Shown: positions 3,070-18,675 of the stretch, in pieces
How the letters are laid out: every line of letters starts with the position of its first letter
Position numbering within the stretch: position 1 is the stretch's first letter
NCBI GenBank assembly: GCA_903830945.1
Contig: CAIKVT010000045.1
Span: 1-47,885, forward strand
From: an uncultured Elusimicrobia bacterium
GTDB lineage: Bacteria; Elusimicrobiota; Elusimicrobia; UBA1565; UBA9628
Direction: 5' to 3'
Length of the DNA: 47,885 nt
The notes under the pieces: generated by a model
The model's input: the letters and a program-made list of their open reading frames with translations, nothing else
Told to the model about the DNA's origin: nothing
Databases searched by the model: none
Made by a program: the position numbers and the translations under genes

Positions 3070-3870
3070 TCAGTGTGGCCTTTGAAAGAGGTATGAGGAA
3101 CATCCCGTCTCGCAATTTGGGGAGCAGCGGATCAGCCGGAGCCCCAGTTTTCCGAGGAACCCAGTTGTTTCCGCAACGGAGGCGTATTCATACGGGTAGC
3201 CTCCCAGCCAGTCCCTCAAATCGTTCCACCAGAGCATCCCGCGAGATTGCGGATAGTCTCGGATGACGCGCCAAGGATTTTGCCGTTCTTTTAGCAAGAG
3301 ACGCAAGATATCTTTGCCGGCATAGGCCGCCAGCATCAGGTTCTGGATCCATCGGGGCGAACCGCAATAGAATTTCTTGATCGCCTTCCAGAAGGGCGAG
3401 GTCCAATGGCGGTTATAGATGGCCAGGTGCAGGAAGCCGCCGTCCTTGACGAGTCGAGCGGCGTTCTCGACGGCTTTCCATAGATGGCCTGTATGATGAA
3501 GCACGCCCCAAGCGTAGACTAAGTCATACCGGCTGAGTTGCTGGGTGAAGCCCTCGGCGAGGATGTCTCCTTGTTGAATATGCCAGTGGCCGGCCTCGGG
3601 GGCTTTTCTCGCCTTGAGCCTGCGGCACGCCTCCACGCTGTCGGCGTCATAATCGAAGCTGAACACTTGGGACGCGCCGAGAGCGACGGCCGCATAGGAG
3701 TGGATACCGCTCCCGCAGCCGACGTCCAGGACGGCCCAACCCTTTAAATCATGACGTTCGTGGAATTCCAGGAGGGCTCTTTTCGCCCTTTCAACGTGGA
3801 GGTCGCCTGCGTTTTTTAGATAACTTTGCCAGTTTTGGCCGAAGGCGAAGCGATCGGTTGGCTGGGTCAT
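3070..3870 (-). CDS. Class I SAM-dependent methyltransferase (UbiG-like fold)
   Basis: A 266-residue protein with a Rossmann methyltransferase core. Motif I is VLDVGCGSGIHS (about residues 47-58), the acidic end of strand 2 is FSFDYD, and the motif near strand 4 is DLVYAWGVLHHTGH. The C-terminal 100 residues, rich in Trp and Lys (HWTSPFWKAIKKFY), form a substrate-specific region I cannot match. It is the last gene of the minus-strand glycan cluster, after a family 2 glycosyltransferase, so methylation of a sugar or lipid intermediate is the reasonable guess. The 69-base gap to the glycosyltransferase is longer than typical in the cluster. Confidence 0.85.
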   Translation of the reverse strand: MTQPTDRFAFGQNWQSYLKNAGDLHVERAKRALLEFHERHDLKGWAVLDVGCGSGIHSYAAVALGASQVFSFDYDADSVEACRRLKARKAPEAGHWHIQQGDILAEGFTQQLSRYDLVYAWGVLHHTGHLWKAVENAARLVKDGGFLHLAIYNRHWTSPFWKAIKKFYCGSPRWIQNLMLAAYAGKDILRLLLKERQNPWRVIRDYPQSRGMLWWNDLRDWLGGYPYEYASVAETTGFLGKLGLRLIRCSPNCETGCSSYLFQRPH

Positions 3871-3939: not shown

Positions 3940-4944
3940 TTATAAACTGATCTTGAATTTTCGTTTAAGAATCTCCCATTGCATGGAAAATCGCAGTCTG
4001 GAAAATAGATAGATTTTGATGATCCCATAATCGATCCATCGGAGAACGATCATCCAATTGAAAAAAACACGGTCGACTATCGTCGGAGAAGGCAGCCTTG
4101 TGCGCAGCCCGGCGATGCCGGCTCTTTGGGAGCGGGCCCAGGCGTCAAAAAAGTCAAAAAACAGTCTCCGTTGGCACTGCAGTGCGTACTCGGCGGGGAA
4201 AATGTCCTTATAAACAGTCTCCATCAAGTGCTCCGCGTGGTCTATGATGCTCAGCGCCATCTTTGTATTTACGGCCGTTTGTGATGAGTAGCCGCCCCCC
4301 ATCCGTCTCCATGCGGCTAAGGGTTCTGGGATGAAACAAACGCCATGTTTTAATGCAATGACCAGGGAGATGAAGCCGTCGGAGAATGAGTGGAGTTCCG
4401 GGATGAAGCCGCCTGCATCCAAGAAAGCCTGGCGTCTGTAAATCGTCGTGTTCCCCATGAACCAGCCGCCATGCCGCTTTAAAAGCTTAATAGCATTCTC
4501 CGGGGATATGAAACATGCTGTATCAGAGATATCGGGCAAATGAAAAGATCCTTTGTCTTCGCCGTGCTCTCCGATGAGAAGAGAGCCTGTTGAGCACAGT
4601 CCGGCTTGCGGATATTGTGCTAATAGAGCTATTGATTTCTCAAGAAGTCCCGGGAGGATTATGTCGTCGGCGGCCGAGGATAGAACGTAGTCTCCGGATG
4701 CCATCCGGATGCCCCGATTGCAGGAGTAAACCACCCCCGCATTCTTGGGATTCTGGACTAATTTTACAAAGGGCCAGTGCATTGCGAATCCTTGTATGAC
4801 TTCGACGCTATTGTCCGTCGAGGCATCATCGATGACAATCACTTCGTGCGGCTTCAGGGATTGTCCTGTGATCGCCTTCAGCGCTTCGCCGATAAAACGC
4901 GCGTGGTTGAAGTTGGGTAAGACCACGGACAATGTCGGGCTCAT
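3940..4944 (-). CDS. Family 2 glycosyltransferase (GT-A)
   Basis: A 334-residue inverting-type glycosyltransferase. It has the family start SVVLPNFNHARFIGEAL, the nucleotide-binding VIVIDDASTDNS, and an acidic metal site in LSSAADDIILPGLLE. A Trp-rich acceptor region (LAAWRRMGGGYSS) follows at about residues 215-230. The C-terminal hundred residues are basic and aromatic and may lie against the membrane. It should add one sugar to the surface glycan or to a lipid carrier. On the minus strand TACAAT lies 7 bases before the ATG, so it may also have its own promoter in the 18-base gap after the carrier protein gene. Confidence 0.9.
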   Translation of the reverse strand: MSPTLSVVLPNFNHARFIGEALKAITGQSLKPHEVIVIDDASTDNSVEVIQGFAMHWPFVKLVQNPKNAGVVYSCNRGIRMASGDYVLSSAADDIILPGLLEKSIALLAQYPQAGLCSTGSLLIGEHGEDKGSFHLPDISDTACFISPENAIKLLKRHGGWFMGNTTIYRRQAFLDAGGFIPELHSFSDGFISLVIALKHGVCFIPEPLAAWRRMGGGYSSQTAVNTKMALSIIDHAEHLMETVYKDIFPAEYALQCQRRLFFDFFDAWARSQRAGIAGLRTRLPSPTIVDRVFFNWMIVLRWIDYGIIKIYLFSRLRFSMQWEILKRKFKISL

Positions 4945-4962: not shown

Positions 4963-5205
4963 TTATTCCAGTCGAGATGAGGCCCTGGCGTCAATGAGTT
5001 TTTGGAGCTCGCCTAAATTCTTCAGTCTCAATATTTCCTGCATTTTAAAACGGACATTGAAGGTTTTTTCAATTTCGACGATGACGCTGATATGGGTGAG
5101 CGAGTCCCATCCGGGCACCTGGCTGGCCAGCGTCTCATTCTTGAAGTCAAACTTGTCAAGTTTCAGTTTCCTGAGTATTACCTTTTGGAGTCTTTCTGAA
5201 ATCAT
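4963..5205 (-). CDS. Acyl carrier protein-like phosphopantetheine carrier
   Basis: An 80-residue carrier protein. The attachment site is GWDSLTH, with Ser35 as the predicted phosphopantetheine serine, followed by an acidic helix (ISVIVEIEKTF) typical of carrier proteins. The stop of the upstream acyl-AMP ligase gene is 10 bases away, and GAGGA precedes the ATG. The context (ligase, SGNH protein and MBOAT directly upstream) suggests that it carries the activated acid from ligase to MBOAT, as DltC does in D-alanylation. It is not the housekeeping AcpP, whose usual site motif is GADSLD. Confidence 0.9.
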   Translation of the reverse strand: MISERLQKVILRKLKLDKFDFKNETLASQVPGWDSLTHISVIVEIEKTFNVRFKMQEILRLKNLGELQKLIDARASSRLE

Positions 5206-5215
5206 TCGGTCCTCG

Positions 5216-6952
5216 TCACTGTGGTTCTAACTGCAGAATGCGTTCCTTATTTATTTTTCTGCTTGGTTTCCCTGAAGAGCTTTTGATGAGCCAGCGCGGC
5301 GGAACTAGATATATTTTTGTTATGGTAAGGTCCATTGCCAGTCCCGCAGAATAAATTAGTTTCTTCAATTCGTTCTTGTCGGTTTGGACTGCGGGTTTGA
5401 TCTCCGCGATCACGCCGATCCGCTCAGTTCCCATTTCGGAATCTTCTTCTCCAAAGGCTACGACCCTTCCGGGAGCAACCCCCGGGACCCTGCTGATCGC
5501 GTCTTCAATGTCTTCAGGATAGATATTCTTGCCTGCGACTATGATGATGTCCTTCTTTCGCCCGACCATGAAGTATTCGTCTTTGTGGCGGAACCCGTAG
5601 TCTCCGCTGCAGTACCAGCCGTCTTTAAATACCATGGCTGTCATCTTTGGATTGTTCTTGTACCCGTTAAAAAGGGAGGCAGAACGGATGACGATCTCTC
5701 CTACGGTATCATCTTCAAGATCCGAGCCGTCCTGGCCGATGATTCTGAGCAGGACGCCGGCGATGGGCTGGCCTGATGAAACGCACCGTCTGACAGGTCC
5801 GGCAAAGGAAGCCTCGGCTAATTTGATGGTCCCTTTCGCCAGCGCATCCCTGTCGACTACAACAACAGCGGCGGGTTCGCCGGGCGTGGTCTGAGTGACG
5901 GCAAAGGTCGTTTCAGCCATAGCGTAGCAGGCGGTCAGCGACCTGCGCTTGAGACCGCATTTTGAGAATCTTCTGAAGAAAATTTCGTGGCTTTCGGCTC
6001 TGACGGGCTCACTGCAGTTGATCAGCATTCTGATTGAACCGAGGTCGATATGCGCGAGAGCGTCCTCATGGATTTTTTCAGCCATGAGGTTGTATGCGAA
6101 ATTGGGCAGCCATGCCAGAGTGCCCTTTTCTTTAGTGATGGCCTCCAGGAGCAGCAACGGGTAAAGGACCCACTCGAATGGATCGATTTGAACTGTCGTA
6201 ATCCCGAAAGCAAGAGGGAGTTGGAATGCGGCGATGAGGCCCATATCATGATACAAAGGCAGCCAGTTGATGATCTTGTCATTTTTCGTCAAATTAAGCG
6301 CTATCCCGTAATAGGTCACATGGTCGAGTATCGCTTGATGGGACAGCATAACTCCCTTCTGAAGCCCCGTAGTGCCTGAAGAATGCTGGAGAAGGACCGG
6401 ATCGGATGGTCTCATCGAACCGCGGAGTTCTTCGATCTCCTTGAGTTCGTCGATATAGTTCTGGTCCTTATGTGACTCCTTTTTAAGCCATTCAAGCGGG
6501 AAGTGTAGTCCTCTGATCGTGCTTTTATCGTGGAATACGAGCGGCGTTATGGTCTCTTCCAGCGCGCGTTCGGTAAAAATCCAATCAAGACCTGAGTGTT
6601 GGGACATCCCCGCAAGGCTTTGTCTGAATTTGTCCGGATGAAGCCTGGCATTCGGGTAGGCCAGAACGGCCGGAATCGCTCCGATGGCGCTGACAGCAAG
6701 ATAAAGCGGATAAAAATAGGGATTGTGCTTGATGATGATGGCGCAGACTTCTCCGTTCCTGACGCCATTCCTCCTCAAGAGAGCGGCGATTGCGGCGGAT
6801 GTGTGCAGCAGCCGCTTAAATGTCCAGCGGTATGGCTTTTCGCCGGCCACCCAATGCACGATCGCGTCCTTATTGGGATATTTTTCAGCGTTTGAGCACC
6901 ATCGCTCCCATACCAGCGAATCTGATTTTCGCTTATCGAATGGAAGCATCAT
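5216..6952 (-). CDS. Fatty-acyl-AMP ligase (AMP-forming)
   Basis: A 578-residue adenylate-forming enzyme. The P-loop is HSSGTTGLQKGVMLSH (about residues 190-205). The motif NWLPLYHDMGLIAAFQ is typical of fatty-acyl-AMP ligases, which pass the adenylate to a carrier protein rather than to CoA. Further elements are CYAMAETTFAVTQ, the hinge motif SGDYGFRHKDEYFMVGRKKD, and a C-terminal lysine in LIKSSSGKPSRKIN. Whether the FAAL-specific insertion that blocks CoA use is present should be checked in an alignment. The likely partner is the carrier protein 10 bases downstream. Its start overlaps the SGNH gene's stop (ATGATG), so translation is coupled. The natural acid cannot be read from the sequence. 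Confidence 0.92.
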   Translation of the reverse strand: MMLPFDKRKSDSLVWERWCSNAEKYPNKDAIVHWVAGEKPYRWTFKRLLHTSAAIAALLRRNGVRNGEVCAIIIKHNPYFYPLYLAVSAIGAIPAVLAYPNARLHPDKFRQSLAGMSQHSGLDWIFTERALEETITPLVFHDKSTIRGLHFPLEWLKKESHKDQNYIDELKEIEELRGSMRPSDPVLLQHSSGTTGLQKGVMLSHQAILDHVTYYGIALNLTKNDKIINWLPLYHDMGLIAAFQLPLAFGITTVQIDPFEWVLYPLLLLEAITKEKGTLAWLPNFAYNLMAEKIHEDALAHIDLGSIRMLINCSEPVRAESHEIFFRRFSKCGLKRRSLTACYAMAETTFAVTQTTPGEPAAVVVVDRDALAKGTIKLAEASFAGPVRRCVSSGQPIAGVLLRIIGQDGSDLEDDTVGEIVIRSASLFNGYKNNPKMTAMVFKDGWYCSGDYGFRHKDEYFMVGRKKDIIIVAGKNIYPEDIEDAISRVPGVAPGRVVAFGEEDSEMGTERIGVIAEIKPAVQTDKNELKKLIYSAGLAMDLTITKIYLVPPRWLIKSSSGKPSRKINKERILQLEPQ

Positions 6953-8607
6953 AATCTCTGGAAACTGCGAGTGGTTATGTTATAGGTGATCCCGAGCGAC
7001 TCCAAAAGGTGTCCGGTGGTTTCGCCGTTTCCCATGTCCGTGATCCATTGCGATACTACATATTCTGGTTGCACATGGAGCGCTTCATTGAGGAGGCCGA
7101 CGACTCTTCGGGATGAGCGGTTGCGAGCCGCTTCGATCAAAGCCTCTCCGAAAAGAAATTTTACCTCCGACTCGGGCTTGGCAGACGCAGCCGCCCGATA
7201 GTCTTGGAGTCGAGCTTCGGCCATGGCCAGGAAGTCTTGGGGATAGGCTGAGAGGCTTCTCATCCGGTAATGCCATGCGGCCTCGGCCCATGCCACTTCT
7301 GACTCCTCATCTTTGGTCACTCCAAGCTCCCGATGGTAGCGCATCGCCAGGGCCTGCGGGTCGGCCGTCCGCCAGTCTAAGCAATCGTGCCTTTGGGCGG
7401 GGCCAAGCGGCGGCAATTCTTCCAGCGCACAAAGGAAGTTTTGGGCGAGGAAAGCGTGTCCCATCAGGTTGGGGTGCTCCATGTCACTGAAAAATTTCCG
7501 GTAACCGAAACCTCGATCCACCAGGGAGTTCAGTCCGGGGGTGGTGTCGAGGTAACGAAAATAACCACCTCTTGTGGCGGCGGCTTTCGTCAATAGGTTC
7601 AATCGCGCGGCGTAACGGAGAGGTAGCCCATCCTGGACTATGCTTTTGATGAAGAATACGTGCGCGGCGTCATGCTCTCCGTTCGCCCAGTGGGCTTGAC
7701 CGATGCGGTAATTTAGGATGGCGACATCCGGGTCGATACTGCTTGCCCGCCTCAGGATAGCAAGGGCTTTCCGGTAGTCTCCCTGCACAAGCCGGGCCGT
7801 GCCTTGCGCCAGGAGGGCGCGGAACCGGTCCCGTTGCGGCACGGAGAGGCCGGGGCGCTGGGTCGAGACAAAAGGCCTCCAGGTGTCATCCAATATCGCG
7901 CCGGCTGCCAGGATGTATTTCCCGGACTTCTGGGCCAGGGATGCGACGGCGTTGATGTCGGCGCCGAAATCGTTTATCATGCGTTCCTCTATGAGCGCCG
8001 GAACGAGCGGGGGCTGGATTTCCGCGGGTATTATCTGTTGCCGGTTAACGATGAATAGGGGCTGTGGCGGCGCCAGGTTCTTGTACCGCCATTTGCGTAA
8101 GCGGGCGTAGACATGACTTTTTGTGATGAGCGCTTCATGCCATTCGTCCATTGTAAATGAGAGTCCAAAATCGTAATTTTTCTTTTGTGCTGCCAGCCGG
8201 AACCTGCCTTGGTCGTCGATGTAAGGCGCATGTTCATTCATGCCCGAGTATATGAGGATGTAGTCGTAATGCCCGAGGAGTCGTTTGATCAAGGGGGCTT
8301 GGTAGCCATGGAAAGGCCCGCCGTTGATGCCGTAGTTCTTGATGAAAAACAGCTTGTTGGGATGTCGGTTCCGCAGTTCGTGGCGCAGGATGTCTACGAA
8401 CGTCCTGGTCGTGCCGAAGCCTGCGACCGGCGATTCGCCGAAGACGGCGATTTTGATGTATCGCTTCGGGTTAGCCGGATAGCTTTCTGCGGCGCGAGGC
8501 GCGGCGACGAGGCCCGTGCGTTCTAGCACGCGTAGGCCCACCTCTACAGCCGACAGCATGAGCACGCCGGCTGCGACGAAGGCCAATGGCCAGGAATGGG
8601 GCCGCAT
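6949..8607 (-). CDS. SGNH/GDSL-fold protein with internal TPR repeats, MBOAT partner
   Basis: A 552-residue protein with an N-terminal membrane anchor (residues 8-24) and a probable periplasmic domain. Block I, FGESPVAGFG, holds Ser59. Block III, YSGMNEHAP, holds Asn124. Block V, SDMEHPNLMGH, holds Asp375 and His378, so the Ser/Asp/His triad is complete. Between blocks III and V lie TPR-like helices (about 262-330: ARLVQGDYRKALAILRRASS and the following pair), and the C-terminal 150 residues are again helical and Ala-rich. Such proteins (DltD, AlgJ/AlgX class) act with MBOAT transferases in moving acyl groups to polysaccharides. The MBOAT gene ends one base before this one starts. Confidence 0.85.
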   Translation of the reverse strand: MRPHSWPLAFVAAGVLMLSAVEVGLRVLERTGLVAAPRAAESYPANPKRYIKIAVFGESPVAGFGTTRTFVDILRHELRNRHPNKLFFIKNYGINGGPFHGYQAPLIKRLLGHYDYILIYSGMNEHAPYIDDQGRFRLAAQKKNYDFGLSFTMDEWHEALITKSHVYARLRKWRYKNLAPPQPLFIVNRQQIIPAEIQPPLVPALIEERMINDFGADINAVASLAQKSGKYILAAGAILDDTWRPFVSTQRPGLSVPQRDRFRALLAQGTARLVQGDYRKALAILRRASSIDPDVAILNYRIGQAHWANGEHDAAHVFFIKSIVQDGLPLRYAARLNLLTKAAATRGGYFRYLDTTPGLNSLVDRGFGYRKFFSDMEHPNLMGHAFLAQNFLCALEELPPLGPAQRHDCLDWRTADPQALAMRYHRELGVTKDEESEVAWAEAAWHYRMRSLSAYPQDFLAMAEARLQDYRAAASAKPESEVKFLFGEALIEAARNRSSRRVVGLLNEALHVQPEYVVSQWITDMGNGETTGHLLESLGITYNITTRSFQRL

Positions 8608-8608
8608 C

Positions 8609-10075
8609 TTAGAATTGGAAATAGACGAATGTCTTGCGGGTGATGGTGCTGAAGGATATGACGGTGGCGATGCCGGCGTAGTACAGCGGCCAGCGCAGCC
8701 AGACCGGTTGTGCGGACAAGCGCTGGCGCAGGGAGCCGGGGCCTTGGTCGAGGTGCGCGCCGAGCAGGATTAGCAGGGCCGCGACGCTGATGAGTACATC
8801 CCACCGGGTCAGCCCGAGATAGAAAATCCAATGCCAGGGAGGCGTGCCCAAGGGAGCGGCCCAGCCGCCCGGGAGGCAGCGGATGAGGGTGAATGCATCC
8901 TGGAGAGAATCGGCCCTGAAGAATATCCAGCTGAAGCATACGATATGGAAAGTTATGAATACGTTCAATAGCCGCAGCAGGGATGGAAAATGATTCAATT
9001 TTAAAGCTGCGACGGCCGCGCGCCGCACGTCAGTCAGCCAGAGCCCCAGGACGATGCACATCCCATGGATTCCGCCCCAGATGACGTACGTCCAATTGGC
9101 TCCATGCCATAAGCCGGTGGCTAGGAAGGTGATCGTCAGGGCACAGGTGACGCCCCAGTTCCCCCAGTTTCTCTTGAGGAATGTGATTGGCTGAAAAAGA
9201 TAGTCCCGGAACCAGCTCGACAAGGATATATGCCACCTGCGCCAGAATTCTGAAATGGATTGCGAAAAGTAGGGCCGATCGAAATTGGCCATCAGATTGA
9301 ATCCCATGACCTGTCCCGCGCCGATGGCGATATCCGAGTACCCGGAGAAATCGCAATAGATCTGGAACGCGAAGGCGTATGTAGCCAGAAGGACGGGCAG
9401 CCCGGTGTAGGTTCCCGGGTGATTGTAGACCTGATCGACCATGGCGGACAATCGGTCGGCAATGACGATCTTCTGGAAAAACCCCCAGAGCATCAGCTGC
9501 AGACCGCGGCCGATGCGCCCCCAGTCGACTTGCTGCTCCGCGTGCAATTGCGGCAGAAGGTCGTACGGCCTTTCGATGGGTCCGGCTATCAATTGTGGAT
9601 AGAACATGACGTAGAGCGCATAGATGCCGAGATGTCTCTCGGCCGCAATCCGGCCGTAATAAACCTCGAAGGTGTAGCTCATGGCCTTGAAGGTTTGGAA
9701 CGAAAGACCGAGGGGGAGGATGATGTTGAGAGCGCCGAGGGGATAGTTCCAGTGGATAAGGCGGGCTAGGGCATCCATGTTCTCGTTGAAGAAGTTGAAG
9801 TATTTGAAGATAAAGAGGACGCCGATATTGGCGGCGAGGCCCAGCCAGAGATAATGCGTCCGCCGCGGACCTTGAGCCCGCTCGATCGCTATTCCCGCGA
9901 CGTAGTCCGCGACGATTATGAAGGCGAGGATGAGAATGTAGACGGGAATAAAGGCCATGTAGAAAAAGCAGCTGGCGCTGAGCAGGAGCAGCCACCGCCA
10001 GCGGCAGGGGAGGAGGAAAAAAGCGGTCGTAACGATTGGGAAGAATATGAGGAAGCGCAACGAGTTGAAGAGCAT
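8609..10075 (-). CDS. MBOAT-family membrane O-acyltransferase (DltB/AlgI type)
   Basis: A 488-residue polytopic membrane protein of the membrane-bound O-acyltransferase family. Diagnostic segments are YPQLIAGPIERPYDLLPQL (159-177), FSGYSDIAIG (243-252), FWRRWHISLSSWFRDYLF (277-294) and GLWHGANWTYVIWGGIHG (321-338). The conserved histidines H324 and H337 are present. DltB moves D-alanine from a carrier protein across the membrane, and AlgI acetylates alginate. The gene abuts the C-methyltransferase stop (TAA then ATG). With the downstream SGNH, ligase and carrier genes it forms a complete acyl-transfer set. The substrate glycan is inferred from the cluster. Confidence 0.93.
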   Translation of the reverse strand: MLFNSLRFLIFFPIVTTAFFLLPCRWRWLLLLSASCFFYMAFIPVYILILAFIIVADYVAGIAIERAQGPRRTHYLWLGLAANIGVLFIFKYFNFFNENMDALARLIHWNYPLGALNIILPLGLSFQTFKAMSYTFEVYYGRIAAERHLGIYALYVMFYPQLIAGPIERPYDLLPQLHAEQQVDWGRIGRGLQLMLWGFFQKIVIADRLSAMVDQVYNHPGTYTGLPVLLATYAFAFQIYCDFSGYSDIAIGAGQVMGFNLMANFDRPYFSQSISEFWRRWHISLSSWFRDYLFQPITFLKRNWGNWGVTCALTITFLATGLWHGANWTYVIWGGIHGMCIVLGLWLTDVRRAAVAALKLNHFPSLLRLLNVFITFHIVCFSWIFFRADSLQDAFTLIRCLPGGWAAPLGTPPWHWIFYLGLTRWDVLISVAALLILLGAHLDQGPGSLRQRLSAQPVWLRWPLYYAGIATVISFSTITRKTFVYFQF

Positions 10076-11323
10076 TTAGGCGTGAACGATGCGGAGCTTC
10101 GGAAGAGGGATGATGAAGCGCCCGCCCTGGTGCATGAACGCCGGGTGCCCCTGCATGATGGGCTCTGCGAACCTCCATGCCAGGATGAGCACGCAGTCGG
10201 GTTTCTTTTTGTAGATGGCCGCGGGAGGCAGGATGGGGATATGGAGGCCTGGACTGTAAAGGTTCTGCCGCTGCACGTTATCGTCGACGATGAAATCCAG
10301 CATGCCGCCGATCTGGAAGTGGTGGATCAGCGTCGTCGCGGTCGCGCAGGCCCCGTAGCCCGCGATCGTCTTCCCTGCGGCTTTGAGTTCGCGCAGGGAT
10401 TGCCGGGTTTCTGATTTCGCGCACTCCACCCGGGCCGCGAAATCTTTGAAAACGTCGGTGCGGTCCAGACCTATCTTGGCTTCCAGCGTGAGCAGCTTCG
10501 CAACAGCGGGCTCCACGCGGCGCGGGCCGCCGACAAGCTGCGCGGTCCCGCGCAGGGAGCCGCCCTTGGTCGGTACGCGTTCCGCATTGATCAGCTCCAG
10601 CCCATGCCGGAGCAGGAACGCTTGGAGAGGCTTGACCGAGTGATAGCAGAGATGTTCGTGGTAGATGAAATCGAATACCATGCCCTCGATCACGTCCATA
10701 AGATAGGAAACCTCAAAAACGAACACTCCATCGGGGGCCAGCAAGGTCTGGATTCCTTCGGCCATGTCTGCCAAGCCGTCGGAATGGGCGAACACGTTGT
10801 TGGCCGTGACGATCGCCGCGGGTCCGCGTTCGGCGCGCAGCTGGCGCGCGAGATGGGAGGAGAAGAAGGCGGGAATCGTCTCGATGCCGCTTCGTGTCGC
10901 CTGCCCCGCGATTTCCCGGGCCGGATCCACCCCCAGAACCTTGAGCCCCTGTTGCTTGAATAGCTTTAGGAGGATGCCGTTGTTGCTGCCGATATCGAGA
11001 GCCAGGGCTCCTGCCGGCGGCTTTGCGTAAGCCAGCACCTGATCTGAGTATGACTGGAAATGATCTTCTAGTCCGGGCGAGCTGGATGAGATATAGAGGT
11101 AGTCTTGAAAGAGCACCTTCGGATCGACGACGTCCAATAATTGGGCGTGCCCGCAGCGGCGGCAAAAGAATAGATCCAAAGGATAGGAGTCCTGGGGCTC
11201 CTTGAGACGATCGGCGGGCACATAGGCGTCCGCGGGCGGAGTCGGCTGTAGGTGCAGCACGAGTTCTACATCCGGGGCTTCGCACAGGCGGCAAGTTGTG
11301 CGCCGAGAAACGCGCGAGCTCAT
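10076..11323 (-). CDS. Sugar C-methyltransferase-like SAM enzyme with zinc N-terminus
   Basis: A 415-residue three-part methyltransferase. An N-terminal zinc-binding segment has paired cysteines (CRLC near residues 10-13 and CRRCGHAQL near 52-60). The SAM domain contains ALDIGSNNGILLKLF and VLGVDPARE. The C-terminal domain contains GYGACATATTLIHHF and DDNVQRQNLYSPG. This order is that of the TylC3/CloU-type NDP-sugar C-methyltransferases. The start at 11323 is chosen because ATGA overlaps the stop of the upstream SDR gene; a longer frame begins at 11428 but would run 109 bases into that gene. The likely role is adding a methyl branch to an activated keto sugar. Confidence 0.87.
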   Translation of the reverse strand: MSSRVSRRTTCRLCEAPDVELVLHLQPTPPADAYVPADRLKEPQDSYPLDLFFCRRCGHAQLLDVVDPKVLFQDYLYISSSSPGLEDHFQSYSDQVLAYAKPPAGALALDIGSNNGILLKLFKQQGLKVLGVDPAREIAGQATRSGIETIPAFFSSHLARQLRAERGPAAIVTANNVFAHSDGLADMAEGIQTLLAPDGVFVFEVSYLMDVIEGMVFDFIYHEHLCYHSVKPLQAFLLRHGLELINAERVPTKGGSLRGTAQLVGGPRRVEPAVAKLLTLEAKIGLDRTDVFKDFAARVECAKSETRQSLRELKAAGKTIAGYGACATATTLIHHFQIGGMLDFIVDDNVQRQNLYSPGLHIPILPPAAIYKKKPDCVLILAWRFAEPIMQGHPAFMHQGGRFIIPLPKLRIVHA

Positions 11324-12075
11324 TTTGGCGGCGCGTGCTTCCGCACGATTGATTCCTGCCATAGCAGGGAAAGTCCTCCATCCACGAAGATGTTCTGTCC
11401 CGTGATGAACGCCGCTTTGGGGCCGCAAAGGAACGCGATGGTTTCGGCTACATCTTCGGCAGTTCCCATGCGCCCCAACGGCGTGATGCGGCGATAGAAA
11501 TCGCGAAGCCGCCTGTTCTTGGCATAAAAGGATTTTGACTCTTCCTTAAGCACGGTGGCAGGCGAAACTCCGTTGACCCGGATCCCATAGGGCGCCAGAA
11601 CTGCCGCATAATACCGCATGAGCTGATTCTGTCCCGCTTTTGCCACATGATACCCCAAGTCGCGCTCACTCGCTATGAAATCTCCAGCCGGGGAGCCGAC
11701 GATGACGATGGCTCTCTCGGCGCTCTCATCAAAATGCGGGATCAGACGCTCGATGATATTCTTCGTCGCCGTAAGGGCCAGTTCGATCTCCCCAGCCCAA
11801 GCGTCTTCCCCATCTCCGCCCCGATATCTTTGCAGGAAAACCAAGCGGCTTAACTTCCCCCGCCGGCGGATGATATCCTTCAACGCCGCGCCCAGCCGTC
11901 GCTCATCGCGCATATCCACCGTCCAATGCCGGGCTCCGGGAAGGACCTGATCCGCGCTGTCCGGTTGATGGCGTCCAATCACCGATACGAGATGACCTTC
12001 CGAGCAGAATAACCTCACTAAGGCGCGTCCGATGCCGCGCGTCCCGCCGACGACAAGGGTGTGGATCCGATTCAT
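11320..12075 (-). CDS. Short-chain dehydrogenase/reductase
   Basis: A 251-residue classical SDR. The cofactor motif VVGGTRGIGRAL is near the N-terminus, SPAGDF sits in the usual serine position, and the catalytic pair is YHVAK. The C-terminal VDGGLSLLWQ matches the family's conserved DGG. An unusual feature is the VVGG start in place of the commoner VTGG. The ATG at 12075 overlaps the stop of the cupin gene (ATGA), and its own stop overlaps the next ATG, so it is translationally coupled on both sides. It could reduce a keto sugar, but the substrate is unknown. Confidence 0.9.
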   Translation of the reverse strand: MNRIHTLVVGGTRGIGRALVRLFCSEGHLVSVIGRHQPDSADQVLPGARHWTVDMRDERRLGAALKDIIRRRGKLSRLVFLQRYRGGDGEDAWAGEIELALTATKNIIERLIPHFDESAERAIVIVGSPAGDFIASERDLGYHVAKAGQNQLMRYYAAVLAPYGIRVNGVSPATVLKEESKSFYAKNRRLRDFYRRITPLGRMGTAEDVAETIAFLCGPKAAFITGQNIFVDGGLSLLWQESIVRKHAPPK

Positions 12076-12608
12076 GCCTGCTTGCCCGTCAAGGATCTCG
12101 CCGTTCGAGCGACCCTTTTCATGAATATCCTTCCGGCGGCCTGGTCTTGGTCGTCCGGGGCCCACGGCGCCGCGATGGAATCCTTTTGGTTGAATGGGCC
12201 ATTCGTCGTTTCGTGGAACACCAGAAAATCTGATCGAACCAGCAACGTGTGGTAGCCGGAGCTGGAGGTTCTGTAATAGAATGCATGCCCCGACCCGTGA
12301 TCGCCCAAGCGGACCGTCTCGGTGACGCATCCGGCGTCGTCGAATCCAATAAGATCGGCAAGACCTTCAATGACATGGTAGGATTCAACTTTCGTCAAGT
12401 GCTTATGGGGGCGTATGTAAGCGTCTTTGGTCAGTACGATTAACATCTCATGAAGGTTATCATCGACGTCGCGATGCATGCAGAGTCGGATGCGCTTCCT
12501 TTTGTTGTGGACGACCTTCGTTTTCAATGATTTCAGTTCCCGCGGCCCCACCGCCGAGTTGGCTTCTGCAGCGAAGAGGACTTCGTTATTGAATGCCTTG
12601 ATCTTCAT
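12072..12608 (-). CDS. WbuC-like cupin-fold metalloprotein
   Basis: A 178-residue protein. The central cupin motif IRPHKHLTKVESYHVIEG supplies two His and a Glu, and a second part (GHAFYYRTSSSGYHTLLV) supplies a later His. This layout is that of the WbuC family found in O-antigen and capsule clusters, whose reaction is not well defined. The N-terminal 40 residues carry a basic patch (KTKVVHNKRKRIRLC). The ATG at 12608 is favoured over earlier in-frame starts because it lies 14 bases after the preceding methyltransferase stop. It overlaps the SDR start by 4 bases. Confidence 0.8.
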   Translation of the reverse strand: MKIKAFNNEVLFAAEANSAVGPRELKSLKTKVVHNKRKRIRLCMHRDVDDNLHEMLIVLTKDAYIRPHKHLTKVESYHVIEGLADLIGFDDAGCVTETVRLGDHGSGHAFYYRTSSSGYHTLLVRSDFLVFHETTNGPFNQKDSIAAPWAPDDQDQAAGRIFMKRVARTARSLTGKQA

Positions 12609-12622
12609 CGTGCGCCGCCGCT

Positions 12623-13285
12623 TTACTGGAAGAGAATATAAGAATAGTCTCCCGTGTAGCCGGCCTGCCGGAAAAACCATTCCCATTCTTTGGGAGAGTA
12701 GAAGGAACGGCAGGTCAACTGCCAATAAAGGAGATTCATCTTTTCGCGTTCGTTGAGATAGGATTCGATGACGATGTGTTTCGGGCCTCGCGAGACGCGT
12801 TCGATCTCTTTCACGGCTTCCCAGAGCTCATAGTTGTAGAGGTTGTGAAGGGCATTGACCGAGAAGACGAAATCGAAGCTCTTATCAGGATAGGGGAGCT
12901 TGGCCGCAGTCCCTACGGTCAAAAACGGCCGGACCTCTTCTTTGGCGTGTTCTATGCCGTAGCGGGAAATGTCGATGCCGGCCACCCGGGAGCCCGGCAC
13001 AACCTGCGTGAACTCGTAGAGCAAAAACGCCTTGCCGCAGCCCACGTCCAGGATGGTCGCTCCAGGCTTGAGGCCGTAGTGCTTGGCCATGTCCTCGGCC
13101 ACTGGCCGCCAACGGCCATCGTAGCGGTAGCCGCCGTAGCCGTAGCGGCGGTCGCCGTCCCAGTAATCTTTATCCCAGCGCAGGGCGACCTCGGCGCACT
13201 CGGCCTTGTCGGCTTCGTTGACGCGGCCGACGTAATCGCGTTTTGTAGACTTGTGGATCTTTTGGATAAAGTCGACGTAGGCCAT
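12623..13285 (-). CDS. Class I SAM-dependent methyltransferase
   Basis: A 220-residue methyltransferase. The SAM motif ILDVGCGKAFLLYEF is near residues 78-92, followed by VAGIDISRYGIEHAKEEV and the post-motif segment FDFVFSVNALHNLYNYELW. An N-terminal region rich in Tyr, Gly and Arg (WDGDRRYGYGGYRYDGRW, about 41-58) is unusual and may bind the substrate. The start at 13285 is 7 bases after the preceding epimerase stop. It sits among sugar-modifying genes, so a sugar or lipid intermediate is the likely target. Confidence 0.85.
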   Translation of the reverse strand: MAYVDFIQKIHKSTKRDYVGRVNEADKAECAEVALRWDKDYWDGDRRYGYGGYRYDGRWRPVAEDMAKHYGLKPGATILDVGCGKAFLLYEFTQVVPGSRVAGIDISRYGIEHAKEEVRPFLTVGTAAKLPYPDKSFDFVFSVNALHNLYNYELWEAVKEIERVSRGPKHIVIESYLNEREKMNLLYWQLTCRSFYSPKEWEWFFRQAGYTGDYSYILFQ

Positions 13286-13292
13286 GATGCTC

Positions 13293-14285
13293 CTAGGGCT
13301 TATGCTGGTATTCGAGCGGCTGCCGGGATATCTCCTCCCAGTTCCTTTCAACCCATTCTACGACTTCGGTCAAACCCGCGTCCAGCGCGACTCGAGGGCA
13401 CCAGCCGAGCTCAGCCCTCGCTTTGCGCGAATCGAGAAGATAAGCCTGGTCCTGGCCCGGTCGCTCGGCGACCGCGCGCGCGGCCGAGGCGAAGTCTTTG
13501 CCCATGAGAGCGCAGAGCAACCTAACCAAATCATTCACCGCGATGCCGGCTTCCGGCGAGAGATGGTAGACTTCTCCGAGCCGCCCGCGCTCAAGGATGG
13601 CCAGCTCGCCGCGTGAGACGTCGCGCACGTGGATGTAGGATTTTACGGCGACGCCGCTTCCGTGCAGCTCGATGGTCCGTCCGAGCTTAAGGTAGATGGC
13701 CGTGCGTGGGATGATCTTGAAGAGCTGCTGGCGCGCGCCATAGACGTTGGTGGCCCGCACGGTCAGCAAGGGTAGGCCAAACTGTCGGAAGTAGACGGAC
13801 AGGAGCATGTCGGCCGCGGCTTTGGAGGCCGCATAGGGAGTGCTCGGGGCGAAGGACTTCGACTCGTCGACCAAGCCCGCGCAGGTCCCGTAGGCCTCGG
13901 GCGAGGAGATGTGCAGATAGCGCTTGAGATAATCTCGCCGGCGCAGGTGGTTGACCAGGCGTGCCAGGGCGACTGTGTTGGTCTCGAACCAGTGCTCAGG
14001 ATGCTCCCAACTCGGGGCCACCTCGCTTTGCGCCGCGAAGTTGACGATCTCCTCCGGTCGCTCGCGGTCAAGAAGTGCCAAGAGCGCGTCCATGTTGCGG
14101 TTCAAATCTAGGGCGAAGTAGCGGTAGCGTGAGAGGTCTTCTCGTGCTTTATAGTGCAAAAAGAGTGCTCCTCGCTCGGGCGAACGGCTGACCCCGATCA
14201 CCTCGCGGCTGGGATCGCCCAGCAGGAGGTCCACGAAGTCTTGCCCGGAGAATGAGTTTGCACCCAGGACCAGTGTCTTCTTCAT
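13293..14285 (-). CDS. Extended SDR: NDP-sugar dehydratase/epimerase
   Basis: A 330-residue enzyme with the start VLGANSFSGQDFVDLLL, a variant of the usual GxxGxxG with Asn and Ser. Further signs are the active-site segment ISSPEAYG, the catalytic YAASK, RATNVYGARQQLFKIIPR and YIHVRDVSRG. The last two resemble dTDP-glucose and GDP-mannose 4,6-dehydratases. The ATG overlaps the stop of the HAD-kinase gene by 4 bases. It is one of three extended SDRs in the cluster; exact chemistry (4,6-dehydration or epimerisation) cannot be fixed from sequence. Confidence 0.88.
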   Translation of the reverse strand: MKKTLVLGANSFSGQDFVDLLLGDPSREVIGVSRSPERGALFLHYKAREDLSRYRYFALDLNRNMDALLALLDRERPEEIVNFAAQSEVAPSWEHPEHWFETNTVALARLVNHLRRRDYLKRYLHISSPEAYGTCAGLVDESKSFAPSTPYAASKAAADMLLSVYFRQFGLPLLTVRATNVYGARQQLFKIIPRTAIYLKLGRTIELHGSGVAVKSYIHVRDVSRGELAILERGRLGEVYHLSPEAGIAVNDLVRLLCALMGKDFASAARAVAERPGQDQAYLLDSRKARAELGWCPRVALDAGLTEVVEWVERNWEEISRQPLEYQHKP

Positions 14286-15880
14286 CGCGCCTGCGCCTCC
14301 TGGCGCAGCTTCACGCGCGCCTTTCTCAGCTGCAGACGCCGCCGTTCGGATAGCCCCGCACCCCCGAGAGCGAAGCGCCGCCGTTCTGCCGCCGTCGGTA
14401 GAAAATCATTGAGCAGGATGCAGGCCCACTTGATCCTATAGACGCTGTGTAGGAGCTCCGCGCGCTCGATAAGGCCAGGGGGGCCGCCCAGGGCGGCGCT
14501 TACTCCCTCGGCGAATCGCGACCGGGACGCCTCCGGCGCGGGCAGAGCCGGCTGTTCGAAAAAGTCGCAGATGGTCTTGGCCGGGTCGTCCCAGCCCGCG
14601 TACTCGAAGTCCAGGAAGCGCAGGCGGCCGTCCTCTTCCAGCAGCGCGTTGTGAAATCCAAAATCGGAGGGGGAGATGCACCGCTCGGACTCGGGGAGGA
14701 CCCGGCCTGGATCAATACCAATCCGGCGGGCATGGCTTGAGACGGAGGCGCGGGTTCGAGTCCAGGCTGGAGCCAACTCGTCCCGCACAAAATCGGAGAC
14801 CTCGACTTCGAGAGCGGAGTCGGACGGGGGTAGGCTTAAGAGCGCTCCCATGCGGTTGTCCACTAAAGCCAGATGCTCAGCCAAAGAGAAGCAGGCCTCG
14901 GAGGCGCCGGGCAAAGACGAAGCGCGTGGAGATCGGCGATGACGGTTGATCTCGGTAAAGAATCCTAAAGCCTGGCCCAGGGCGTTCTCGTCGACTTCTT
15001 CGGGAGAGAGACTGCGCCCTTCGATCAGTTCAAAGAGGCTCAAGTGCCCGCCAGGGTCGCAGGCCAGGGGTTGGGGGAGTTGCCGTAAGCCGCAGTCCCA
15101 GGCAAAGCGCGAGAAGGCGGCCTCTGCGCCGGAACGGTCGCGCGGGTCGCCCGGATGGGAGAAGTAGGCTTTGAGTAAAGCCCGAAATCCGGCACCTTTC
15201 AGGTGGAAAGTCCGGTTGTTGGCCGCGCCGGGTGCGGGGAAGAGGCGGCAATCCCTCGCTAGCCCGGCAAGGCCCAGCAGGTCCGCTACGCCCAGGGTCA
15301 GGGTCTCGATCTCGGCCCAGGACCGGGCTTGCGCGAAGGGGCTCTCGTGCGTGCCGCTCGGATCGAAGAGAATGCGTCCGACGCTCTCGGGGAATCCCGG
15401 TTCGACGAGGAACTCCGGAAGGTCGTCGATGAACAGCGTGCAGCCCTGCTCCGCTATGCGCGCAAGTTTGGCCGTCTTCGTCTCCTCGAAGAAAACGTGC
15501 TCGGGACTGAGCCCCGTGTCCTCGAAGAAGTGGTTGCGCAAAAGCCATCTGCGCGCCCAATCGTGGAGATCGTGTTCCGGCCCCATGAAGGGTTTCATCG
15601 TGCGGTGGCTGATCACGCGTACCGGAACGCGGCGCTCTCGGCAGAGGCGGAGGAAGTTCACGACGCCTGGGAAAGGGCGCGCTCTCTCCATGCCTGGGCC
15701 GTAGACATGACCCTGCAGCAGGGTCCATTCGTCCTCGCGGCCCGTGCGGCGCATGGCGTCGCGCACGGCATTTTTAACCATGGGGGTTCCGGCGGCGATT
15801 AGGCCCCGCTCCACCGCGATGGCATGGAAGGCATCATCGTATGAAACGATCGTATTGTCGAAGTCGATCCCGATGAGCAT
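14282..15880 (-). CDS. HAD phosphatase-like domain fused to APH/choline-kinase-like kinase
   Basis: A 532-residue two-domain protein. Residues 1-200 are HAD-like: motif I IDFDNT (D6, D8), a Lys in the FFEETKTAKL segment, and motif FIDDLPE (D152, D153). Residues 210-532 resemble aminoglycoside phosphotransferases and LicA-type kinases: SPSDFGFHN with the presumed catalytic D406, then LDFEYAGWDDPAKTICDFF with metal-binding D424. The usual HGD of the kinase catalytic loop is replaced by PSD. A longer frame starts at 16063, but its N-terminus overlaps the dehydrogenase gene and looks non-native. The ATG at 15880 overlaps that gene's stop (TGATG). A role in phosphorylating and dephosphorylating a cluster metabolite is inferred. 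Confidence 0.8.
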   Translation of the reverse strand: MLIGIDFDNTIVSYDDAFHAIAVERGLIAAGTPMVKNAVRDAMRRTGREDEWTLLQGHVYGPGMERARPFPGVVNFLRLCRERRVPVRVISHRTMKPFMGPEHDLHDWARRWLLRNHFFEDTGLSPEHVFFEETKTAKLARIAEQGCTLFIDDLPEFLVEPGFPESVGRILFDPSGTHESPFAQARSWAEIETLTLGVADLLGLAGLARDCRLFPAPGAANNRTFHLKGAGFRALLKAYFSHPGDPRDRSGAEAAFSRFAWDCGLRQLPQPLACDPGGHLSLFELIEGRSLSPEEVDENALGQALGFFTEINRHRRSPRASSLPGASEACFSLAEHLALVDNRMGALLSLPPSDSALEVEVSDFVRDELAPAWTRTRASVSSHARRIGIDPGRVLPESERCISPSDFGFHNALLEEDGRLRFLDFEYAGWDDPAKTICDFFEQPALPAPEASRSRFAEGVSAALGGPPGLIERAELLHSVYRIKWACILLNDFLPTAAERRRFALGGAGLSERRRLQLRKARVKLRQEAQAR

Positions 15881-16920
15881 CAACGGAGGGAAAGGTCGAG
15901 CAAAGGCCTCACACAGCGGCCGCTTTCGAGATCGTTCAAGGCTTCGTTGACGCGTGTGAGCGGATAGGGGTCCGACAAGAGCGGCGAGAGGTCCAGGCGC
16001 CCGGACGAGAGGAAGGAAAACCAACGCGGGAAATCGCGGTCCGGCTCGTTGTCCCCGCCCCAAGTCCCGAGCAGTCGCTTCCCCTGGTTGAGCTCGCGCG
16101 GATCGATATTGAGAGTCTCCCCGTGCCGCGCGTTGCCTGCCACGACTGCGCTTCCGCCGCGCGCTCGCACACAGGACAAGGCCTGGCGCATGGCCTCTGG
16201 GCGGCCGCTGGCCTCTATCGCCGCGTCAAAGCCTCCGGGGATGAGGACGCGTAGGGACTCGAGAATTTTTTCTCCGGCCGAAAACACGTGCGTCGCGCCT
16301 AAGCGCCGCGCCGCCTCCAGTCGCTCGTCCCGGCTGTCCACGGCGACGATTGGCGCGCAGCCGGCCAGGCGCGCGGCCGCCACGGCGCTCAGGCCTACGC
16401 CCCCCACGCCGAAGACCGCGAGGCTTTGGCCCGGCTGGGCCCGCAGGGCGTTGAAGATCATGCCAAAGCCCGTTGGCACGGCGCAGCCGAAGAGAGCAGC
16501 CTCTCGCAAAGGGAATGCCGCAGGCAGTATGGTGAGGCGGTTCTCGCTGACCACCACGGCCCGGGCGAAGGTGATGATCGCCCCGGAGTTGACCTTGCGT
16601 CCGCCCCATTGATAGACGGTCCCGGGCACGTCCGCGCCGGAGGCTTTCATCCAAGAAAGCAGCACCGGATCGCCGGCCCTGACCTTATTGACGCCCGGTC
16701 CTGTCTCAAGAACACGGCCGGAGCCCTCGTGGCCGAGTCCATGGGGTAGGAAGGCGTCTGGCCCGCGCAGACCGCGCGCTTCCAAAAGCTGGGTGTGGCA
16801 GACGCCGCTGAAGGCGACCTCGACGAGGACTTGACCGGGTTTCAAGGCCGGGATGTCGAGCTCGGCCAGTTCAAGGGCTCGGCCCGTTTCAACGAGGATG
16901 GCGGCGATGGTTTTGCTCAT
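15880..16920 (-). CDS. Zinc-type alcohol dehydrogenase (MDR family)
   Basis: A 346-residue medium-chain dehydrogenase. Catalytic zinc ligands are Cys41 (GVCHTQ) and His64/Glu65 (GHEGSG), with a further Cys in the FGCAVPTGFG segment. The cofactor motif is VFGVGGVGLSAVAAARLAG, followed by VAVDSRDERLE with the Asp expected for NAD. The four-cysteine structural zinc lobe of classical alcohol dehydrogenases is absent. It lies between the split transketolase and the HAD-kinase with 4-base and 1-base overlaps, so it likely acts on the same metabolite, perhaps an aldose/polyol or ketose interconversion. Confidence 0.9.
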   Translation of the reverse strand: MSKTIAAILVETGRALELAELDIPALKPGQVLVEVAFSGVCHTQLLEARGLRGPDAFLPHGLGHEGSGRVLETGPGVNKVRAGDPVLLSWMKASGADVPGTVYQWGGRKVNSGAIITFARAVVVSENRLTILPAAFPLREAALFGCAVPTGFGMIFNALRAQPGQSLAVFGVGGVGLSAVAAARLAGCAPIVAVDSRDERLEAARRLGATHVFSAGEKILESLRVLIPGGFDAAIEASGRPEAMRQALSCVRARGGSAVVAGNARHGETLNIDPRELNQGKRLLGTWGGDNEPDRDFPRWFSFLSSGRLDLSPLLSDPYPLTRVNEALNDLESGRCVRPLLDLSLR

Positions 16921-17840
16921 TGGTTTAAGCTCCTCAGCACGCGCGCGGCTATGCCCTCCGCGTCAAGCCCCAGACGCTTCCGGGCGTATTCTTGTCCGCC
17001 GGCCTCGCTTAGGAATGCGTCTGGGCCGCCGATGCGGCAGAGGCGAGCCTTCTGAGGCTTCCGGTCGCAGAGCCATTCCGCGATCGCGCCGCCCAGGCCC
17101 CCGATGAGGCCGTGCTCCTCGATGGTGACGACGAGCTCGAAGCGGGAAAAGACGTCACAGAGCAGGGCGTCGTCCAAAGGCTTGACGGTATGAAAGCTGA
17201 CGAGTCCGGTTGTCAGGCCGCTGCGATCGAGCTCGTCGACTGCAGACATGGACTCCGGCAACAGGGTCCCGGTCGAGAGCAGACAAACCCGCGTGCCGGA
17301 TTTTAGGACGATGCCGCGGCCGATGGTGAAATCAGGGGGAGCTTTGTGCACCACGGGCTCGCCTTTTTTGCCCAGGCGCAGGTACACTGGGCCCGGAGAC
17401 TTGAGCGCGGCGCGCAGGGCCAGGCGCGTCTCCACCGGATCGCCGGGACAGACCACGCTCATGCCGGGCAAAGAGCGCAGGCAGGCGACGTCCTCCATCG
17501 AGTGATGGGTGGCGCCCAGGGAGGCATAAGAGAGCCCCGCTCCGATACCGACGATGACGACCGGCAGACCGTGGTAGCAGACGTCGACGCGGATCTGCTC
17601 CAGGCAGCGCATCGTGACGAAAGGGGTGATCGTGTAGGCGATGGGTCTCAGACCGCAGGAGGCTAAGGCGGCGGCGACGCTCATCATATTCTGCTCGGCC
17701 ACGCCGCAGTTGTAGAAGCGCTCCGGGAAGGCGGCCTTGAACTTATCGAAGAGCCGGTTGCCGATGTCTCCCGAAAGCATCATCACCCGCGGGTCCTCCG
17801 AGGCGATGGCCGTCAGCTCCGCGGCGAAGGCGTTCCTCAT
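16917..17840 (-). CDS. Transketolase-like protein, C-terminal subunit
   Basis: A 307-residue protein matching the pyrimidine-binding and C-terminal domains of transketolase. It includes DPRVMMLSGDIGNRLF, CGVAEQNMMSVAAALA (with the catalytic Glu), and GATHHSMEDVACLRSLPG. The C-terminal domain carries ITVEEHG-like VVTIEEHGLIGGLGGAIAEW. The ATG at 17840 overlaps the N-subunit stop (ATGA), which explains why the longer frame beginning at 18065 is not used. It must pair with the next gene to bind thiamine diphosphate. Its place in a glycan cluster argues for a specialised two-carbon transfer rather than the pentose phosphate pathway. Confidence 0.92.
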   Translation of the reverse strand: MRNAFAAELTAIASEDPRVMMLSGDIGNRLFDKFKAAFPERFYNCGVAEQNMMSVAAALASCGLRPIAYTITPFVTMRCLEQIRVDVCYHGLPVVIVGIGAGLSYASLGATHHSMEDVACLRSLPGMSVVCPGDPVETRLALRAALKSPGPVYLRLGKKGEPVVHKAPPDFTIGRGIVLKSGTRVCLLSTGTLLPESMSAVDELDRSGLTTGLVSFHTVKPLDDALLCDVFSRFELVVTIEEHGLIGGLGGAIAEWLCDRKPQKARLCRIGGPDAFLSEAGGQEYARKRLGLDAEGIAARVLRSLNQ

Positions 17841-18664: not shown

Positions 18665-18675
18665 GAGGTGACCCT

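Follow-up and report, generated by a model that had tools for sequence, protein, structure and literature searches.

The closest described relatives of the system considered here are the MBOAT–SGNH pathways, in which a hexapeptide motif, FXYXXF, acts as an acyl shuttle: the tyrosine of the motif carries the acyl group (PMC12148441). The Dlt system carries this motif on a microprotein, DltX; in PatA the MBOAT itself bears it, on two additional helices (PMC12148441). On the current account, MBOAT–SGNH pathways besides Dlt have neither a carrier protein nor a DltX-like peptide, since they use acyl-CoA (PMC12148441). A 2025 review of fatty-acyl-AMP ligases (FAALs) makes no mention of MBOATs or polysaccharides (PMC11837247). 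Here we describe a four-gene module in which an MBOAT, an SGNH protein, a FAAL and an acyl carrier protein (ACP) are encoded side by side in an uncultured Elusimicrobia bacterium (assembly GCA_903830945.1, contig CAIKVT010000045.1). The stretch analysed, called the window below, is this whole contig (C45; 47,885 nucleotides), from a genome of 3.24 Mb in 84 contigs. The best reading of the module, and quite a probable one, is carrier-fed O-acylation of the envelope with a fused acyl shuttle. The features on which it rests are these:

4963-5205, minus strand: apparently dedicated ACP, 80 aa (PF00550, 25.2 bits)
5101-5103, minus strand: codon of carrier Ser35 (sequence and alignment)
5216-6952, minus strand: FAAL, 578 aa (PF00501; WLPLYHDMGLIA at residues 230-241; conserved lysine K562)
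5768-5905, minus strand: FAAL-specific insertion region, about residues 350-395 (YAMAE-to-GEIVI spacing; alignment to 3kxw and 7r7g)
6949-8607, minus strand: SGNH/GDSL-fold transferase (or esterase), 552 aa, with an N-terminal membrane helix (motifs and AlphaFold model)
7576-7842, minus strand: TPR repeats inserted in the SGNH domain at residues about 256-344 (TPR hits; helices of the model; TPR structures match 255-328)
8609-10075, minus strand: MBOAT, 488 aa, predicted catalytic His324 (PF03062; DltB-like core with two extra helices at the C-terminal end)
8612-8629, minus strand: acyl-shuttle hexapeptide FVYFQF with Tyr485, at the MBOAT C-terminus (FXYXXF motif)
9167-9196, minus strand: MBOAT residues 294-303, FQPITFLKRN, matching helix HC of DltB, on which DltC docks (alignment; without [LMI]GG)

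The four open reading frames (ORFs) lie where an earlier note, made from the letters of this DNA, had placed them: in one operon, with gaps of 1 (MBOAT/SGNH), −4 (SGNH/FAAL) and 10 bases (FAAL/carrier). Pfam finds PP-binding, AMP-binding, TPR-repeat and MBOAT domains in the four; it has no match for the SGNH fold itself in the window protein. The module belongs to a longer series of minus-strand genes, nearly all overlapping or abutting, that begins with a flippase (22226-23785) and extends to a GT2 glycosyltransferase (3940-4944).

What kind of ligase feeds the carrier? FAALs are recognised by a FAAL-specific helix, a blocked CoA pocket and rejection of CoA (PMC8460268). The earlier note had pointed to WLPLYHDMGLIA in the ligase as typical of FAALs; the motif is there, and the assignment, as against DltA or a CoA ligase, is upheld by structural matches, insertion spacing and phylogeny. 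The best PDB matches of the ligase are FAALs, which come before every CoA ligase with a single sequence and with a four-member profile. The best NCBIfam model is likewise a fatty acyl-AMP ligase (NF006624), at a score below that model's cut-off. Aligned with 3kxw and 7r7g, the FAAL-specific insertion shows no large gap. The YAMAE-GEIVI spacing that reports it is 70, against 67-70 in the ligase's own clade where measured (56 in one member), 37 and 44 in DltA, and 33 and 36 in FACL-like ligases of related genomes, a range of 33-44 for the DltA and FACL-like enzymes together. In a tree of 58 ligases the window FAAL falls in a fully supported clade of 13, far from DltA, and its separation from the two DltA rows is fully supported. 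This clade is made up of members of the window's phylum, Ignavibacteria, Lindowbacteria and Nannocystis, and the window FAAL is nearest to Ignavibacteria. D-alanine, considered as a substrate, is rejected on the NCBIfam result, the ligase tree and the insertion spacing. Judged at the level of the enzyme family, the loaded acid is most likely a fatty acid.

The carrier has its predicted phosphopantetheine site at Ser35, the DSL serine of PGWDSL, and PGWDS[LM] is kept in the carriers that adjoin FAALs of the same clade. As in Dlt, then, there is a carrier with a phosphopantetheine serine (PF00550, GWDSL) that looks dedicated, because the genome encodes a separate, much stronger ACP on contig C81. 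Further PP-binding proteins occur elsewhere in the genome, along with three proteins of the phosphopantetheinyl transferase family. One 1141-aa frame of this genome (G000:C66:43179-43910) has three tandem PP-binding domains, as in synthases of the polyunsaturated fatty acid type, and is a possible source of an unusual acid.

The MBOAT has DltB as its best PDB match by sequence and by fold; still, the DltB model TIGR04091 scores it at 176.6 bits, under the cut-off of 375, which places it outside the DltB equivalog family. In its AlphaFold model (pLDDT 90.5), the two extra helices span residues 424-442 and 458-475. As in pairs of the PatAB/AlgIJ type, FXYXXF is carried on two extra helices of an MBOAT with a catalytic His (H324); it is fused to the C-terminus rather than placed on a separate DltX microprotein. 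An FXYXXF end turns up in 0.2% of shuffled C-termini, and His324, F483, Y485 and F488 are invariant among 31 aligned MBOATs. The earlier note had likened the module to Dlt as a system of the same four parts. The likeness stands; the list of four does not, for Dlt has a fifth part, DltX, whose motif here forms the last six residues of the MBOAT.

The SGNH protein provides the partner expected of a PatAB/AlgIJ-type pair. SGNH/GDSL blocks I, III and V (Ser, Asn, Asp-His) are present as G57E58S59, G122xN124E125 and D375xxH378, and four relatives, about 23% identical, share them. The AlphaFold model is poor overall (pLDDT 61.7) and good in the core only; this core matches GDSL esterases at Z 15-16 and PatB at Z 13.9 (about 14-16 overall). 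The motifs and the modelled fold would fit a transferase or an esterase.

One hint of the acyl donor comes from the segment on which a carrier would dock. Helix HC of S. thermophilus DltB receives the carrier, through Met302, Val305, Ile306 and Met309 (PMC11035591). At this position carrier-less MBOATs mostly read YIPLGGNR, and the window MBOAT reads FQPITFLKRN, the segment being altered on its own branch; a second MBOAT of the window genome (on contig C26, 53% identical, no ACP) reads PLGGNR. By alignment, none of the 47 MBOATs that adjoin an ACP carries [LMI]GG; among the 59 that do not, 42 carry it. Among loci fetched after the motif had been noticed, it occurs in 0/5 ACP-linked MBOATs and 18/27 others (p 0.01), two of these five carriers being weak (one without a Pfam hit, one several kb off). 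The test was not fully blind, since the first definition, P[LM]GG, missed SLGG, MGG and IGG and was widened after the later loci had been seen. On a tree built with the docking segment cut out, motif and ACP linkage shift together in 4-5 of 9 supported independent pairs and never oppositely (p about 0.06). The docking segment may allow the donor type of an MBOAT to be told from its genome, going by a comparison that sorts MBOATs by ACP neighbourhood. The earlier note's suggestion that the module does not follow the acetyl-CoA route of AlgIJ gains some support from this segment.

The same set of genes recurs far from the window. The survey was an FAAL-profile scan of 84,980 species' genomes together with related genomes; outside the window's phylum it consists of one FAAL scan. 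Within the window FAAL's clade, FAAL, ACP and MBOAT adjoin in six contigs labelled Ignavibacteria or Bacteroidota and in one Lindowbacteria contig, Nannocystis has the order MBOAT-FAAL-ACP, and two more members come from another family of the window's class. An MBOAT is in the locus for 11 of the 13 clade FAALs, the exceptions being one on a 4.7-kb contig with neither ACP nor MBOAT (L022) and one whose MBOAT lies on another contig (G093; FAAL at L016, MBOAT at L164). An ACP adjoins every clade FAAL whose contig extends past it. The FAAL-ACP pair is thus a unit. The MBOATs beside clade FAALs end in FXYXXF, and on four Ignavibacteria contigs SGNH genes lie directly before the FAAL. Beyond the clade, TPR-SGNH, MBOAT, FAAL and ACP occur together in Acidobacteria, which is the window's full part list, and Anaerolineae (Chloroflexota) have MBOAT, SGNH, ACP and FAAL with an MBOAT that has no hexapeptide. 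No MBOAT lies near any of the FAAL loci L076-L100, most of which encode large fused enzymes. Because ACP-linked MBOATs are scattered through a tree of 74 MBOATs, with at least seven changes in ACP linkage forced by supported branches, a single FAAL lineage is paired with several MBOAT lineages. That the four genes keep company elsewhere, as the earlier note would have it, is therefore confirmed by these neighbourhoods in other phyla. Such recurrence is more than chance would give, and a chance neighbourhood is rejected on this ground.

How might the module work? The carrier-protein-dependent O-acylation that the earlier note proposed is favoured by the identity of the FAAL, the recurrence and the docking segment. 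Gene content, membership of families, motifs, recurrence and the changes that go together are shown; the catalytic steps that follow, like the acid and the acceptor, are inferred. A phosphopantetheinyl transferase would arm Ser35 of the small carrier, and the FAAL would adenylate a carboxylic acid (in all likelihood a fatty one) and attach it to the carrier as a thioester. The carrier would then dock on the cytoplasmic face of the MBOAT, at the site matching that of DltC on DltB, and with His324 the MBOAT would transfer the acyl group to Tyr485, in the MBOAT's own C-terminal FVYFQF, which would face outwards from the inner membrane. Finally, Ser59 of the TPR-bearing SGNH protein would take the acyl group from Tyr485 and pass it to a hydroxyl of the operon's glycan.

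Chloroflexota appear to have built the shuttle differently. All 13 Anaerolineae MBOATs that lack the hexapeptide are directly preceded by an ORF of 34-44 residues, with one helix, that ends in WIYQGF. The microprotein scan recovered S. aureus DltX as a positive control; it also lists in-frame C-termini of hexapeptide MBOATs, and only hits for MBOATs without a motif of their own were counted. A Leptolinea plasmid (AP024711) carries one of these ORFs, where the annotation has a hypothetical protein. The WIYQGF microproteins, mostly unannotated, are at L028:5830-5949, L032:6927-7058, L035:4829-4954, L176:5298-5414 and nine further Anaerolineae loci. Judged by their sequences, they are likely DltX-like acyl shuttles outside Dlt.

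Loaders other than FAALs also stand beside ACP-linked MBOATs in the window's phylum, namely FkbH (290 bits), acetate-CoA-ligase-like and FadD7-like ligases. The FkbH family loads glycerate from 1,3-bisphosphoglycerate. In the family of the window genome, L134:5731-10442 (G020) holds FkbH, ACP, an MBOAT ending in FVYFQF that is about 48% identical to the window's, and an AlgX-like SGNH protein, and this set is possibly a glyceryl-transfer module. ACP-MBOAT sets with other AMP ligases are found in the phylum at L135:1-4448, L136:655-3708, L143:4139-9060 (where a B12/radical-SAM gene lies between ligase and ACP), L224:6799-10294 and L240:4613-7939. A Bryobacteraceae contig (L067:9962-13040) has FAAL, ACP, an AlgJ/AlgX-looking protein and GT2 with no MBOAT nearby. 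On a Sinorhizobium meliloti plasmid (L175:5635-8908), an MBOAT ends in FLYQGF and an annotated acyl carrier protein follows two genes on; no ligase was found beside that MBOAT.

The surroundings of the module bear on its acceptor and its origin. The neighbouring features are:

3070-3870, minus strand: methyltransferase (69-base gap after GT2)
3940-4944, minus strand: GT2 glycosyltransferase, next gene in the operon (18-base gap after the carrier; its homologue in genome G068 is the GT2 of a cluster without the module)
10076-22213, minus strand: sugar-biosynthesis genes upstream, probable makers of the acceptor glycan (domain and family matches; G068 synteny)
22226-23785, minus strand: Wzx-type flippase (PF01943/PF13440; 12 kb upstream of the module)

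The earlier note had put the module at the end of the glycan cluster, which does not hold, as the GT2 and methyltransferase genes come after it on the same strand. Its place is inside the operon, as an insertion into a glycan cluster that is conserved. The upstream stretch encodes a C-methyltransferase (CMT), SDR, WbuC cupin, methyltransferase, GDP-mannose 4,6-dehydratase-like (GMD), kinase-like (KIN) and ADH proteins, a two-part transketolase (TKn, TKc), epimerases (EPI) and an HldE-like protein. G068, from another family, keeps the cluster as EPI2-HldE-EPI-TKn-TKc-ADH-KIN-GMD-MT2-SGNH-WbuC-SDR-CMT-flippase-GT2, its proteins mostly 36-74% identical to those of the window (SGNH 24%), with no MBOAT, FAAL or ACP within the 38 kb read. 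The window's module sits between CMT and GT2, genes of one cluster in the module-free G068. With its two-part transketolase, ADH, HldE-like bifunctional enzyme, HAD-like/kinase-like protein and C-methyltransferase, the cluster shared with G068 is unusual, and its sugar is possibly branched or of the heptose type. The acceptor is probably the glycan of the window's own cluster. An LptF/LptG permease gene in the window suggests a diderm outer membrane of the lipopolysaccharide (LPS) type. As to origin, ACP, FAAL and GT2 have GC contents of 0.44, 0.51 and 0.51, where the window as a whole has 0.61; the closest kin of the FAAL are in Ignavibacteria, and the MBOAT is of the phylum's own kind. The FAAL-ACP pair thus reads as a graft, set next to an MBOAT of resident type within a glycan cluster.

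Several observations weigh against carrier-fed acylation with a fused shuttle, or against parts of it. In the 74-MBOAT tree, the window MBOAT shares a starred clade with seven others; six of the eight have no adjacent ACP, so carrier use is not a trait of its subfamily. The docking motif was noticed post hoc, and the later test set is small, with its two weak carriers. Seventeen MBOATs have neither the motif nor an adjacent ACP; five of these are in genomes or records with an FAAL elsewhere (G074 twice, G091, G093 and the Leptolinea plasmid), which leaves 12 unaccounted for. The MBOAT and SGNH proteins could be an ordinary acetyl-CoA O-acetyltransferase pair of the AlgIJ/PatAB type, with FAAL and carrier making, say, a lipid or sugar amide. 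Such a division of labour would suit an MBOAT whose nearest relatives by tree are plain MBOAT-SGNH pairs without ACP, in an operon that runs on past the carrier to GT2 and methyltransferase genes. It sits poorly with the altered docking segment on the window's branch, with MBOATs of several lineages as recurring neighbours of the FAAL-ACP pair in other phyla, and with FAAL-linked Chloroflexota sets that hold the full Dlt-like part list and a DltX-like peptide, and we consider it improbable. That ligase and carrier are chance passengers, or products of misassembly of a metagenome-assembled genome, is very improbable indeed: the lower GC of ACP, FAAL and GT2 and the Ignavibacteria affinity of the FAAL would fit, and against them stand overlapping or abutting genes, flanking genes (CMT and GT2) that G068 keeps in a single cluster, and an FAAL-ACP-MBOAT neighbourhood repeated in other phyla.

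Two further alternatives concern the acid and the SGNH protein. A carrier-fed system whose acid is not fatty (short branched, hydroxy or aromatic, for example) is a real possibility, if the lesser one. FAALs can be promiscuous, so that "fatty" is a family-level term; they load varied chain lengths (PMC11837247), and related genomes pair ACP-MBOAT with FkbH (a glyceryl-type loader) or with acetate-CoA- or FadD7-like ligases, so this kind of system tolerates many acids. On the other side, the window ligase groups with FAALs whose characterised members use fatty acids. The SGNH protein, for its part, could be an esterase that strips acyl groups, the MBOAT acylating the acceptor directly. Its closest solved structures are mostly esterases, and a related TPR-SGNH homologue stands in the G068 syntenic cluster (L153:7811-9304), where the 38 kb read include neither an MBOAT nor an ACP. 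The transferase PatB matches nearly as well (Z 13.9), however, a fused FXYXXF implies a second transferase (PMC12148441), the gene is flanked by those for MBOAT and FAAL, with an overlap of 4 bases, and the grouping of TPR-SGNH with MBOAT, FAAL and ACP is found again in Acidobacteria. We regard a removing role as unlikely, and carrier-fed O-acylation ending with transfer by the SGNH protein is preferred.

The module appears to be a carrier-fed variant of the acyl-shuttle MBOAT-SGNH kind that is not described in the open literature searched. There, MBOAT was not found combined with FAAL, with SGNH plus carrier and AMP ligase, or with a carrier in lipopolysaccharide clusters; a search on FkbH and MBOAT returned cyanobacterial peptides only, in which the MBOAT is a proposed tailoring enzyme. 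The window locus and its relatives are exceptions to the current account of MBOAT-SGNH pathways both on the carrier and on the DltX-like peptide. With them, acyl-shuttle chemistry on surface glycans would no longer stop at acetyl and D-alanyl but would take in fatty and further acyl groups, and FAALs would gain a role beyond polyketides and lipopeptides. We lean slightly towards a broader view: carrier-fed MBOAT-SGNH acylation may be a large class beyond Dlt, with two builds (a fused motif, and the DltX-like microprotein of Chloroflexota), arising repeatedly from CoA-type MBOATs by change of the docking segment and using interchangeable loaders (FAAL, CoA-ligase-like, FkbH) to decorate the surface glycans of bacteria with acyl groups of fatty, glyceryl and other kinds.

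How does the module compare with known systems? AlmEFG of Vibrio cholerae is a Gram-negative, carrier-dependent system of envelope acylation, as proposed here; AlmG is not an MBOAT, however, and the substrate is glycine on lipid A. The FAAL-ACP pairs of polyketide, lipopeptide and olefin pathways likewise join a stand-alone FAAL to its own ACP, but they partner a polyketide synthase (PKS) or non-ribosomal peptide synthetase (NRPS), whereas the window pair partners an MBOAT and an SGNH protein. PatA/PatB and AlgI/AlgJ/AlgX share with the window an MBOAT-fused hexapeptide, a separate SGNH protein and the setting of an envelope glycan; they are described as acyl-CoA users without a carrier (PMC12148441), whereas the window has an operon-encoded ligase and carrier and a different docking segment. 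Dlt (DltA, DltB, DltC, DltD, DltX) shares the most: an AMP-forming ligase, a DSL-serine carrier, an MBOAT without [LMI]GG at the carrier-docking helix, an SGNH protein and the FXYXXF motif. The window differs in having a FAAL in place of DltA, a motif fused on two extra MBOAT helices in place of a separate DltX, an SGNH protein with TPR repeats, and the glycan cluster of an LPS-type diderm where Dlt has teichoic acid. The window module appears Dlt-like in its working and is not Dlt, from which its ligase, its score against the DltB equivalog cut-off and its fused shuttle set it apart.

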